DNA from: Stentor roeselii
Lineage: Eukaryota > Ciliophora > Heterotrichea > Heterotrichida > Stentoridae
Assembly (NCBI GenBank): GCA_006503475.1
Contig: RSEH01000032.1
Coordinates: forward strand, 124,001 to 188,000
Length of the DNA stretch: 64,000 nucleotides
Direction of reading: 5' to 3'
The stretch's first letter is position 1. The number at the start of each line of letters is the position of its first letter. The position numbers and the translations under genes are program-made. Below, one piece after another: positions 6,648 to 51,614 of this stretch. The notes beneath the pieces were generated by a model that made no database searches, was not told the DNA's origin, and was given only the letters and a program-made list of their open reading frames with translations.

Positions 6648-7175
6648 CTAATCATAATTAAGTATATACCTTACAAACTTCTCATAAAATCCAGCTTTTC
6701 TCCTCGGCACCTTCTTCAAATACTGAGTATACTCAAAACTTTCACTAAACTTCTCCTGATACCCACTTTCATCAGCAGGAACTTCCAAAGCCCCAGCAAA
6801 TTTGACTCCAACAAGAACCCCTTCAGTAAGATACTGAAAATTAAGTGAAAGAGCCTTCGCAGCAGCTTCACGATCAGCATACAAAAAATTGATCCAATTT
6901 CCTTCACTTTCCCTGACCTCCAGGACTTTTCCAAGTCTTTTAAACTTATCAACAACCAAGCTTTTAAATTTATCAGGAAATCCAAAGACCAAGACATTAT
7001 TATCAAGAGGAGTCCTTTCAACTTCAACGAATCCAGACCTGCTTTGACTGAGACTCGATCGATTAGGCGGCAAGTGATACTTTGAAAGTGGACTGTAATT
7101 TTTTCGATGAGTTTTAAGGACTTCTGGAGTGGAAATCTCGTATTTGTCCAATCCTGGGGTCTTCTTGTCCTCCAT
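6648..7175 (-). CDS. NUP35: Nup35/Nup53-type nucleoporin with MPPN (RRM-like) domain
   Basis: 175 aa, single exon. Residues about 58-130 match the Nup53/35/40 RNA-recognition-like fold: VLVFGFPDKFKSLVVDKF, a GKVLEVRES strand, GNWINFLYADREAAAKAL and a closing GVLVGVKF. The family pattern is VFGFP, GNWxxIxY, AxKAL. Nup35 belongs to the inner ring of the nuclear pore, where the domain dimerises. The short aromatic tail (EKFVRYILNYD) could correspond to the family's C-terminal amphipathic helix (inference). The protein is about half the vertebrate length and lacks FG repeats. Its only ATG lies 5 bp from the divergent TRAP-beta ATG. Confidence 0.78.
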   Translation of the reverse strand: MEDKKTPGLDKYEISTPEVLKTHRKNYSPLSKYHLPPNRSSLSQSRSGFVEVERTPLDNNVLVFGFPDKFKSLVVDKFKRLGKVLEVRESEGNWINFLYADREAAAKALSLNFQYLTEGVLVGVKFAGALEVPADESGYQEKFSESFEYTQYLKKVPRRKAGFYEKFVRYILNYD

Positions 7176-7180
7176 TTATA
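7176..7180. promoter_or_regulatory. 5-bp bidirectional start region (TTATA)
   Basis: Only TTATA separates the minus-strand ATG of the Nup35-like gene (7175) from the plus-strand ATG of the TRAP-beta gene (7181). On the plus strand it reads TTATAATG, on the minus strand TATAAATG, so one TATAA-like element abuts both start codons. Neither protein has an alternative in-frame Met near its N terminus. Core promoter elements or leaders must otherwise overlap the opposite coding region. Confidence 0.8.
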
Positions 7181-7714
7181 ATGATAGTTCTTCTCGCCTT
7201 CCTCCATCAGGCTCTTGGGGAACTCCTTGCGACTCGGCAGGTCATTTCTAAAGACTTTGCTGAAGGACAGCTGTTTCGTGTGAGGTTCAACTTGACCAAT
7301 CACTTTTCTCAGTGATTTTTATTTAGCCCTGTCTTTAATGTCAGTCTTCTTGATCCGTCTTTTGTCAGGCAGGACTTTTTGTTTATTGAAGGAAAGTCGA
7401 AAGCGAAAGTCACTTTTGGGACTATTAAAGCTCAGGCCTCTGCTTATGTTGATCTTGATATGGAACCGAGAAAGGCTTTTAAGATTAAGTTGCAGAAAGC
7501 GCAGATTTATTATGATTTGCCGGATGAAGTCACTGAAAGTTTTCAGGTTTTTGAAGATGGATTAGAAATTGAGTTTAGAAGTGCAAAAAGTTATTATGTT
7601 GGAAATGCTGATTATTGGGGATTGCTTGTGGGATTTGTTGTTTTAGGGGTTTTGCCTGTTTTGTATAGTAATAGGTTGAAGGCCAGGAGGGTGAAAATTT
7701 ATAAGTTTAATTAG
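7181..7714 (+). CDS. SSR2: Translocon-associated protein subunit beta (TRAP-beta/SSR2)
   Basis: Two exons, 7181-7311 and 7327-7714, joined across gtgatttttatttag (7312-7326), giving 172 aa. The start is fixed by a signal peptide (MIVLLAFLHQALG). It continues with the TRAP-beta luminal domain: FRVRFNLTNHFS, then FNVSLLDPSF and DFLFIEGKSKAKV, matching the family order N-x-T, Y/F-N-V-x-L-x-D-x-S-F, D-F. A single membrane segment (about 147-163, YWGLLVGFVVLGVLPVLY) and a short basic cytosolic tail (KARRVKIYKF) follow. TRAP assists insertion and folding of nascent chains at the ER Sec61 channel. The Asn-linked sites NLTN and NVS are conserved features. Confidence 0.85.
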
Positions 7715-12312: not shown

Positions 12313-14310
12313 TTAATTGAATTTAATTCTCGCTCTAATCAAAACTTCTTTCAATTTCTTACTAGCATAAGTAATTTCATTGAAAAAATTATTTTCAGGT
12401 ACTGCTCCATGTTGCTTAAAAATTCCCATGATCTTAACAAAGTTCTTCCAAAACATCCACCCTCGTTGCAAATCCATAAGCAAGTCAGTCATATGAGGCA
12501 TTTCCTTAGCAACCTGTTCAACATTATCAACAATAAACAACTTTTTCACAGCAATTCCAAGAGCAGGGTTAGGAAGAGGTAACAAAGGAGACCTTTGACA
12601 GAGATCAAGTGCATTTTTAAACAGAACATCAGAATTAACGAATTCCTTCAAAACAATAGCTTCATACAACTGTTGATAGTTTTTAAAAATTGCATAAACA
12701 AGACTATGAAACTGTGCCAAGTCATAATCAACTTCTCCATTCCACACCTCTTCATTCAAAGTAGGCTGAACAAGAGAAAAAACCCTAGAAATAAGAAAAA
12801 TCGCATGTCGACTGCTATCATCAGTTAAAATCAAACATCGTTTCTGAAACTCCTCATCAGTCAACTGCATACATTGGGTCTGACTTAAAGTTCTTCCATT
12901 CAACATCCCATATTTCAAAAGTTCCTGCAAGTAAAAAGCAGAAGACTGCCATTCTGGATCTACCTTCAAAAAAGAACTACCAAAGAGAGTAGGGAGTCCT
13001 TTCGGGTAGATGTAACTCGTACATTCCAAAAAGGTAAGAAGTACTTTTGTGTGAAGCACTTCAATGTCTGCCTCGAGGCACACATCATTCGACATCAGCT
13101 GCTTGGAAGACATGAAATCGTCTGAATGCCATTTCATGCAGAACTGAAGATCAGCGAAGTTCTTTTTTTGATCTGATAACGCTTGGGATAAACTTGCTTT
13201 TGTCACTTTCCAGTTAATAAAAGAATCTGTCTTGCTTGATACCTCGTCTTCAATCTCACTGTACCAGTACTGAACTTTCACTGGGGCTCTACGGTACTCA
13301 ATGGGCAGGCAGGAATAAAGAACTGAAATATTCACAGCTTTTAAATCTTTCAAACTTCTCAACATTCTGCGATAGTTATTCGAGTCGGCAACAGGATGCT
13401 TTTCAAAAAAACGATTAAAAGCGATCAATGTGAAGTTATGTCGACTTATTTGAGAATTGCAAAAGGCAAAATAAAAATCCCTGGGCAACTTGTTGCCCAG
13501 AAGTCTACTGTGACTTTCATATAAAAGACCTGGAGGCTGTAAGGCAAAAGTTGTAGAAGTTTCAATTACATCGAAGACATCCTCAACAAAACTAAGATCT
13601 TTTTCATTAGTCAATTCTTCAAGTCTAACATATTTGATAGTTTCCATCAAGTTCCCAATAGGAATGTCAATATCAAACCTAGCTAAATACCCAGAAAGTA
13701 TAAAAACTTGCTTTAACTCAACAGGCGACACTGCTAAAGTTTCAAAAACTTCCTGAGTTTTCACGTATTTATACTTGGTATGCATGATTTCCGTGATTAT
13801 TCTCGAAACAGGGTAAAAAAGCAGGTCACATCCTCCAACAAGATCATTACAAATCCCTTCTTTCAAGAAATAAGCCATTTGCGCTGATGGCAGATAAGGT
13901 GCTTGAAAAGTCTCACATCTCAGATGTTTAAGAATTTCAACCAAAACATAAGGAAATTCAAGATATTTCCGTGGAAAGCCCTTCAAACATCTCTCTTTTT
14001 CTAAAGAATTAGAAGACCACAGCTTATTCTCCCCAATATTCGCCTTCTCAAACAACGGAATCCCTGGAAAAACAAACATCAACGACAGGTTTTCATTTAA
14101 AGCCTGAAGACGTGAAACTTCTTCTTGAATACTCGGACGAAGCGACATCGAAATCGACCCCATCATTGAAGACTTCTCGTCTTTGGGTAAAATCGTCTCC
14201 AGCCACTGCTCAGCGTCGATGGCGATGCGGCCAGTGAGGTCAGCAAGTTCTCCGATGCGGATAAGTCCTTTTTCCTCGAGTATCTCGAGAACTTTTCTAT
14301 TAATTTCCAT
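12313..14310 (-). CDS. MKT1-like XPG/FEN-family protein, probably catalytically inactive
   Basis: 665 aa, single exon. The N-terminal third shows the XPG/PIN layout: GRIAIDAEQWL, then LMFVFPGIPLFEK, then FQAPYLPSAQMAYFLKEG and GGCDLLFYP, followed by an H3TH-like segment with LSGYLARFD. In active FEN1-like nucleases the second block is VFDG and the third contains PxEAEA; here Asp is replaced by Pro and the Glu pair is absent. Loss of metal ligands, and about 400 extra C-terminal residues, fit MKT1-type post-transcriptional regulators (Pbp1/ataxin-2 partners in yeast and trypanosomes). Assignment to MKT1 rather than another XPG relative is inferred. The divergent neighbour starts 26 bp away. 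Confidence 0.62.
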   Translation of the reverse strand: MEINRKVLEILEEKGLIRIGELADLTGRIAIDAEQWLETILPKDEKSSMMGSISMSLRPSIQEEVSRLQALNENLSLMFVFPGIPLFEKANIGENKLWSSNSLEKERCLKGFPRKYLEFPYVLVEILKHLRCETFQAPYLPSAQMAYFLKEGICNDLVGGCDLLFYPVSRIITEIMHTKYKYVKTQEVFETLAVSPVELKQVFILSGYLARFDIDIPIGNLMETIKYVRLEELTNEKDLSFVEDVFDVIETSTTFALQPPGLLYESHSRLLGNKLPRDFYFAFCNSQISRHNFTLIAFNRFFEKHPVADSNNYRRMLRSLKDLKAVNISVLYSCLPIEYRRAPVKVQYWYSEIEDEVSSKTDSFINWKVTKASLSQALSDQKKNFADLQFCMKWHSDDFMSSKQLMSNDVCLEADIEVLHTKVLLTFLECTSYIYPKGLPTLFGSSFLKVDPEWQSSAFYLQELLKYGMLNGRTLSQTQCMQLTDEEFQKRCLILTDDSSRHAIFLISRVFSLVQPTLNEEVWNGEVDYDLAQFHSLVYAIFKNYQQLYEAIVLKEFVNSDVLFKNALDLCQRSPLLPLPNPALGIAVKKLFIVDNVEQVAKEMPHMTDLLMDLQRGWMFWKNFVKIMGIFKQHGAVPENNFFNEITYASKKLKEVLIRARIKFN

Positions 14311-14336
14311 TTGTTTATATCACTTTTTTGAATTTC
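14311..14336. promoter_or_regulatory. 26-bp bidirectional start region
   Basis: The ATGs at 14310 (minus) and 14337 (plus) are separated by 26 bp. On the minus strand it reads gatataaacaaATG. The plus side contains a T run before aatttcATG. Confidence 0.6.
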
Positions 14337-32795: not shown

Positions 32796-33059
32796 TTAAA
32801 GTATCTTCTTTTCCGATCTTTGAATAAGTTCATCAATCACAGGTAGATAGTTTCTCTTAGGCAGGGTGTTAAGCAAAGTTTGCAGTTCTTCCCAAGCCTT
32901 AACCTGCTTAGTCTTTACAGTTTCTTCACTGGGATGAGGATGGTGATGATGATGGTGCTCTTGAATGCAAGGTGGATCGACTGCTTAGAGCTTACAAGGA
33001 ATATCAGTCCAGTAGTTCCTGACTGGGGCAGAGGCTAATCCGAAGACTCTTCTCAGCAT
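32796..33059 (-). CDS. Small His-rich protein with mitochondrial-type N-terminus, 82 aa
   Basis: Found by splicing on the minus strand: exon 33059-32996, intron gtaagctctaagcag (32981-32995), exon 32980-32796, TAA stop. The protein begins MLRRVFGLASAPVRNYW, a Leu/Arg/Ala-rich amphipathic stretch without acidic residues, typical of mitochondrial presequences. It then contains CIQEHHHHHPHP, a His cluster that could bind metal, and an amphipathic C-terminal helix ending LPVIDELIQRSEKKIL. No family is recognised; a small respiratory-complex subunit or assembly factor is a guess. The start is 50 bp from the divergent IQ-protein ATG. Confidence 0.62.
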
Positions 33060-33109
33060 ATAATTATGGCTGGAATTTGCATAATGACTCAAGAAAATAT
33101 ACAATTTTA

Positions 33110-51594: not shown

Positions 51595-51614
51595 GGGTAA
51601 TAATAAAGTAAAAA
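51595..51614. promoter_or_regulatory. 20-bp bidirectional start region
   Basis: The ATGs at 51594 (minus) and 51615 (plus) are 20 bp apart: gggtaataataaagtaaaaa. The region carries an A/T-rich element usable from both sides. Confidence 0.45.

Follow-up and report, generated by a model that had tools for sequence, protein, structure and literature searches.

A TATAA element at start codons and its possible sharing by head-to-head genes in a compact, heterotrich-like ciliate genome

In the window, by which the whole analysed stretch of 64,000 nucleotides is meant, a Nup35-type gene on the minus strand and a TRAP-beta gene on the plus strand stand head to head with an ATG-to-ATG gap of 5 bp, and the locus raises the question of where the transcription of either gene could begin. 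Both start codons are contained in the 11-mer CATTTATAATG at 7173-7183. The minus-strand coding sequence (6648..7175) is intronless and encodes a Nup35/Nup53-type nucleoporin of 175 amino acids with a single methionine (Pfam RRM_Nup35, E 1.9e-14). The TRAP-beta gene (7181-7714, plus strand) was read from its translation and Pfam match as exon 1 (7181..7311), which encodes a hydrophobic N-terminus; an intron GTGATTTTTATTTAG of 15 nt (7312..7326), predicted by a gene finder in which 15 or 16 nt were the only lengths allowed; and exon 2 (7327..7714), which ends with the stop codon TAG at 7712-7714. The spliced protein has 172 amino acids and matches Pfam TRAP_beta with E 1e-10; its signal peptide is a by-eye reading of the hydrophobic N-terminus. 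The 5-bp spacer TTATA (7176..7180) between the start codons reads TATAA on the minus strand, where it adjoins the Nup35 ATG, and together with the A of the TRAP-beta ATG it makes up the palindrome TTATAA (7176..7181). Lying on opposite strands with their 5' ends less than 1 kb apart, the genes form a bidirectional (divergent) pair in which both proteins match Pfam families; this agrees with the first-pass annotation, which had described a Nup35-like and a TRAP-beta gene diverging at a distance of 5 bp.

It had also been claimed that neither start can be moved inward; the follow-up bears this out and extends it to the outward direction. In the Nup35-type protein, residue 1 is the only methionine and an in-frame TAA (7176-7178) adjoins the ATG on its upstream side. 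The next methionine of TRAP-beta is residue 89 of 172, and its frame closes upstream at 7115 with no ATG between. Upstream exons joined through tiny introns were rejected after a search of 400 bp, in which up to two 15/16-nt GT-AG introns were allowed and no alternative upstream start was found for either gene. The ATGs that do occur within 150 bp upstream are out of frame; for Nup35 they lie at -32, which falls inside the TRAP-beta coding region, and at -70, and for TRAP-beta at -74. A second, diverged Nup35-like gene was observed at C391:196445-196936 (L049). It is 32% identical to the window protein; the alignment begins at residue 14 of the latter and the paralogue's own ATG lies 8 residues before, a position that supports the Nup35 start. 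A TRAP-beta paralogue beside another neighbour was sought in the genome, in which a single TRAP-beta was found. Hence, from the single methionine, the closed frames, the lack of upstream starts and the paralogue on C391, it was concluded that the 5-bp gap stands. It may be speculated that the duplicated nucleoporin relates to the two kinds of nuclei of ciliates.

The assembly that contains the window comprises 44.4 Mb in 522 contigs, and the setting of the locus was studied in a sample of 264 kb, made by joining C228:64001-198000 (which contains the window) and C1:1-130000; the sample thus covers 0.6% of the assembly and two contigs. Gene models were produced by our own simple Viterbi gene finder, which was trained on the sample, allows 15/16-nt introns only and uses no upstream signal. 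It predicted 161 genes in the 264 kb, with TAA, TAG and TGA as the stop codon in 82, 52 and 27 cases; of the predicted introns, 33 were 15 nt and 6 were 16 nt long (no other length being allowed). A code in which UGA encodes tryptophan was tried and rejected: none of the 24 TGA-ended genes with a coding sequence of at least 300 nt showed coding continuation past the TGA, and UGA was therefore taken as a stop. The tiny introns, the gene density and the code fit a heterotrich ciliate. Stentor uses the standard genetic code. Its introns average 15 bp (PMC7858049), and the standard code has also been proposed for Blepharisma japonicum (PMC6879139). The macronuclear genome of Blepharisma stoltei has a size of 41 Mb and is gene-dense, with introns mainly of 15/16 bp and short UTRs; it differs in that UGA encodes tryptophan there and is a stop here, and no start-site motif is noted in the excerpts of that report (PMC9942806).

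The sample contained 159 neighbour pairs, of which 43 were divergent, 73 tandem and 43 convergent. The median ATG-to-ATG gap of the divergent pairs was 296 bp, and the smallest gaps were 5, 9, 9, 20, 22, 26, 42, 47, 50 and 53 bp. Comparable distances occurred in the other orientations, the smallest being 2, 8, 8, 9 and 10 bp for tandem and 5, 7, 7 and 8 bp for convergent pairs. Examples of tandem stop-to-ATG spacing in the range of 2-10 bp are found at C1:26360/26363 (L011), C1:61198/61207 (L015) and window 24224/24233; for genes so close together, the start elements would be situated on or beside the stop codon of the preceding gene. Three further tight divergent gaps had been pointed out in the window, and all of them were reproduced ab initio by the gene finder, while their Pfam support was partial. 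The 26-bp gap (14311..14336) separates a minus-strand MKT1-like gene from a plus-strand gene that has no Pfam match; the 50-bp gap (33060..33109) separates a minus-strand gene for an 82-aa protein, equally without Pfam match, from a plus-strand gene with an IQ motif; and at the 20-bp gap (51595..51614) the minus-strand gene has no Pfam match and the thioredoxin-like match of the plus-strand gene is below the Pfam cutoff. Thus, one partner of the 26-bp pair and one of the 50-bp pair are supported. The MKT1-like protein is encoded at 12313-14310 (Pfam MKT1_C, 4e-26; MKT1_N, 8.9e-10), and the predicted 82-aa protein, encoded at 32796-33059, carries a run of six histidines.

Sites of the CAT-TATA-ATG type were then classified in contig order, taking the first 8 of 154 for CATTTATAATG (5-bp word), 12 of 113 for CATTATAATG (4-bp word) and 8 of 35 for CATTTATAAATG (6-bp word). 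Among these 28 further sites, 4 were double starts (three with a gap of 5 bp, one with a gap of 4 bp), 15 had a single start and 9 had none. By word, both starts, one start and no start were found at 3, 3 and 2 of the 8 CATTTATAATG sites, at 1, 6 and 5 of the 12 CATTATAATG sites, and at 0, 6 and 2 of the 8 CATTTATAAATG sites. The three CATTTATAATG junctions pair an NT-C2 with a Sac phosphatase domain (L001), an eIF2B-type subunit with an 87-aa ORF without assignment (L002), and TPR repeats with a Brix domain (L006); at the 4-bp junction (L030) both sides are without Pfam match, so that Pfam families stand on both sides at two of the four start-start junctions (L001 and L006). The 95% interval of the 3/8 double starts is 9-76%, which corresponds to about 13-116 exact 5-bp junctions genome-wide. 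The start-start arrangement is real and recurrent, and the window pair lies at the tight end of it without being alone. It had been called one of the tightest arrangements imaginable, which is overstated in view of one 4-bp and three more 5-bp cases among 28 sites, and of gaps of 2-10 bp between tandem and convergent neighbours as well.

The words were also counted genome-wide. The word CATTTATAATG was seen 154 times against 54-73 expected from Markov models of order 1-4, and its reversed form 51 times against 25-42 (order 1-3); since the reversed word also exceeds expectation, the excess is partly general to A/T words of this kind. For CATTATAATG there were 226 strand-counts (113 sites) against 133-202 expected (order 1-4), with 46 against 61-95 for the reversed form (order 1-3), and for CATTTATAAATG 70 strand-counts (35 sites) against 22-32 (order 1-4), with 24 against 10-18 reversed (order 1-3). 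The count of CTTATAAATGG was 206 against 36-46 (order 1-4), its reversed form reaching 38 against 32-51 (order 1-3). Hence, the 4-bp word is barely enriched, and the excess of the 5- and 6-bp words is partly common to their reversed forms; the raw reversed word is itself a poor control because GTA/TAC is rarer than ATG/CAT (5,014 vs 8,295 in the sample).

The sequence in front of start codons was examined in 153 of the 161 predicted genes (those whose coding sequence has at least 300 nt and for which 200 bp upstream were available), and base composition was taken from an alignment of 137 starts (coding sequence of at least 450 nt, 100 bp upstream), in which a block of A/T was limited to about -6 to -1. 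It was found that TATAA adjoins the ATG at 22 of the 153 starts, 15 of which have at least 100 bp of free sequence upstream; TATAAATG was present at 22 and TATAATG at 8 of the 153. Displaced copies ended 1-5 nt (19), 6-10 nt (3) or 11-15 nt (8) upstream of the ATG, and a third of the starts (51/153) had a TATAA that ended at most 15 nt away. Per gene-position, the rate of TATAA abutting the ATG reached 0.144, whereas the bins from -120 to -16 gave rates of 0.0013-0.0031. None of 1,151 internal methionine codons had an abutting TATAA (Fisher P 8e-22), a control that is not A/T-matched, as A/T amounts to 62% before internal methionine codons and to 86-88% at starts; because the coding DNA around internal methionines is less A/T-rich, comparison with the upstream bins is preferable. 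The enrichment is not circular, since upstream signals played no part in the gene finding. When the starts were divided by upstream space, TATAA abutted the ATG at 5/31 (up to 30 bp), 2/23 (31-99 bp) and 15/99 (at least 100 bp), roughly as often at crowded starts as at uncrowded ones, and A/T at -6 to -1 was 86-88% for all kinds of start. TATAA is thus a short motif enriched directly at start codons, which is a mark of genomes with ultra-short leaders, and it is a common start-codon element of this genome, either an initiator or a translation context. Two other patterns were noted in the sample. One is a second start context, in which AATAA stops 2 nt short of the ATG (10/153) and ATAAA 1 nt short of it (17/153). 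The other concerns TCTAA(A), TTCCA and CATTC, which are weakly enriched at about -50 to -20, where C exceeds G; these words are a possible second core-promoter element.

The reading that we prefer, with a probability of roughly 0.55 as judged from sequence, is that the element is an initiator and that RNA polymerase II starts in or beside TATAA, so that the 5' UTRs would have about 0-10 nt. In this highly compacted, heterotrich-type macronuclear genome, a short A/T element, often TATAA, is placed right at the start codon; the polymerase would begin inside the element or a few bases beside it, and the mRNAs would carry leaders of this very small size. At the window pair, one copy of TTATAA would supply both strands, reading TTATAA|ATG toward Nup35 on the minus strand and TTATA|ATG toward TRAP-beta on the plus strand; since the word is palindromic, one copy could serve both genes and a separate bidirectional TATA box would be needless. 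It follows from the map that, with a gap of 5 bp, any promoter DNA beyond these five bases would lie in the coding sequence of the neighbour, whether the leaders have 0-10 nt or the 10-30 nt considered below. The first-pass expectation of almost leaderless mRNAs, or of starts within the opposite coding region, is upheld to this extent. ATG triplets in any frame were depleted at -10 to -3 (4 seen, 10.7 expected, P 0.018) and were near expectation at -30 to -11 (38 vs 40.4). Distant bins dip too (14 vs 24.1 at -80 to -71; 13 vs 20.5 at -60 to -51), TGA is likewise low at -10 to -3 (7 vs 14.2), and in 20-nt bins the ATG rate drops gradually from 14.7 to 6.2 per thousand toward the start with TGA falling in parallel; the distant dips and the parallel fall of TGA make this depletion test a noisy one. 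The out-of-frame ATG at -32 of Nup35 disfavours a longer leader for that gene. The jitter of TATAA is more readily expected of an initiator than of a ribosome context locked in position, while its peak at offset 0 would fit a translation context as well. The recurrence of start-start junctions at 4 of the 28 classified sites speaks for the initiator, and the fact that most of these sites are not double starts speaks against it.

The most serious of the alternatives, though a tentative one, is that both genes have ordinary leaders of 10-30 nt, that their mRNAs overlap head to head, each beginning within the first codons of the other gene, and that TATAA is a translation-initiation context. Leaders of such length are known from other ciliates, with a median of 19 nt in Paramecium (PMC5485702), an average of about 18 nt in Halteria (PMC7858049) and a range of 8-44 nt in Nyctotherus (PMC2633312); the constant A/T content at -6 to -1 at all kinds of start would agree with it, and the gradual drop of the ATG rate across 20-nt bins would permit leaders of up to about 20 nt. 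It is less easily reconciled with the undepleted ATGs at -30 to -11 and with the tolerance of TATAA for displacement by 1-5 nt, and no enrichment of TATA-like words was seen farther upstream that could define such a transcription start.

Far less credit is due to two further readings. That one of the starts is wrong, the true 5' end being placed far off by a missed upstream exon or by a long leader within the neighbour, is very improbable: tiny introns are difficult to predict, and the apparent signal peptide of TRAP-beta is short and has no Lys/Arg before the hydrophobic stretch, but within 400 bp no upstream ATG could be connected by way of one or two 15/16-nt introns, those at up to 150 bp (-32 and -70 for Nup35, -74 for TRAP-beta) are out of frame, and the C391 paralogue backs the Nup35 start. 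A shared TATA had been raised at first pass; taken as a single conventional box for both genes, from which transcription would begin about 25-30 bp downstream on each strand, it is the least probable reading of all. TTATAA is indeed a TATA-like word on either strand; yet starts 25-30 bp downstream would fall in each gene's own coding region and lose the start codon that it needs. Moreover, TATAA in the sample sits at the ATG (abutting it at 22/153) and not 25-30 bp above a start, its 9 occurrences at -16 to -45 (30 positions, 153 genes) being the background rate. A TBP core promoter, which has its TATA element about 25-30 bp before the transcription start, was accordingly rejected, the position of TATAA being measured here from the ATG.

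The initiator reading has counterparts in compact genomes of other lineages. In the microsporidian Encephalitozoon cuniculi, 5' UTRs of less than 7 nt were proven by RACE and a motif lies right before the coding start (PMC2803860). The resemblance is in compactness and in the placement of a short motif directly before the coding sequence; the motif there is CCC-like, whereas here it is TATAA, the genome is that of a reduced parasite with 2.9 Mb as compared with 44.4 Mb, and the transcription starts were measured, those of the window genome being inferred. Giardia lamblia has AT-rich, partly symmetrical initiators that contain the transcription start, with leaders down to 1 nt, and between some of its adjacent genes transcription on both strands begins at one and the same nucleotide; bidirectional starts were not predicted by how symmetrical the element is, and the authors suggested that much of the apparent bidirectionality consists of two nearby unidirectional starts (PMC3792122). 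Its AT-rich, partly symmetrical start element is like that of the window, although Giardia is not a ciliate and its starts were measured. Among ciliates, Paramecium tetraurelia shares a compact genome, tiny introns and short 5' UTRs and differs in its median leader, 19 nt against the 0-10 nt proposed here (PMC5485702); term counts in the excerpts of that paper gave no mention of TATA or bidirectional promoters. The spirotrichs Halteria and Pseudokeronopsis also have an AT-rich start-proximal element, located in the former 13-25 bp upstream of the transcription start and not at the ATG (PMC7858049) and in the latter between the transcription start and the ATG (PMC8899921), but their genes lie on single-gene nanochromosomes. 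Ribosomes can reportedly select an AUG that lies close to the 5' end behind an ultra-short leader (PMC8593136), and a study of Loxodes assumed that ciliate 5' UTRs are short and tightly distributed (PMC11441545).

No report of a TATAA abutting start codons in heterotrichs was found in the literature searched, the Stentor genome paper lying outside it. Elements of this kind are already known; what appears to be new is that TATAA stands in this register with the start codon (TATAA|ATG) and that head-to-head genes share it in a heterotrich-like genome. The combined proposal, in which one palindromic TTATAA (or its 4-bp core) acts as the initiator of leaderless transcription in both directions, with the core promoters lying within the coding sequences of the neighbours, at dozens of pairs in a free-living ciliate, is doubtful as a whole. 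If the element is a true initiator, start codons would mark transcription starts within a few bases, which would aid annotation in this lineage. A ciliate with near-leaderless mRNAs would then join the documented cases, which in the literature examined are parasites such as microsporidia and Giardia, and it would mean that the promoter sequence of RNA polymerase II can reside almost wholly in the coding DNA of a neighbouring gene.
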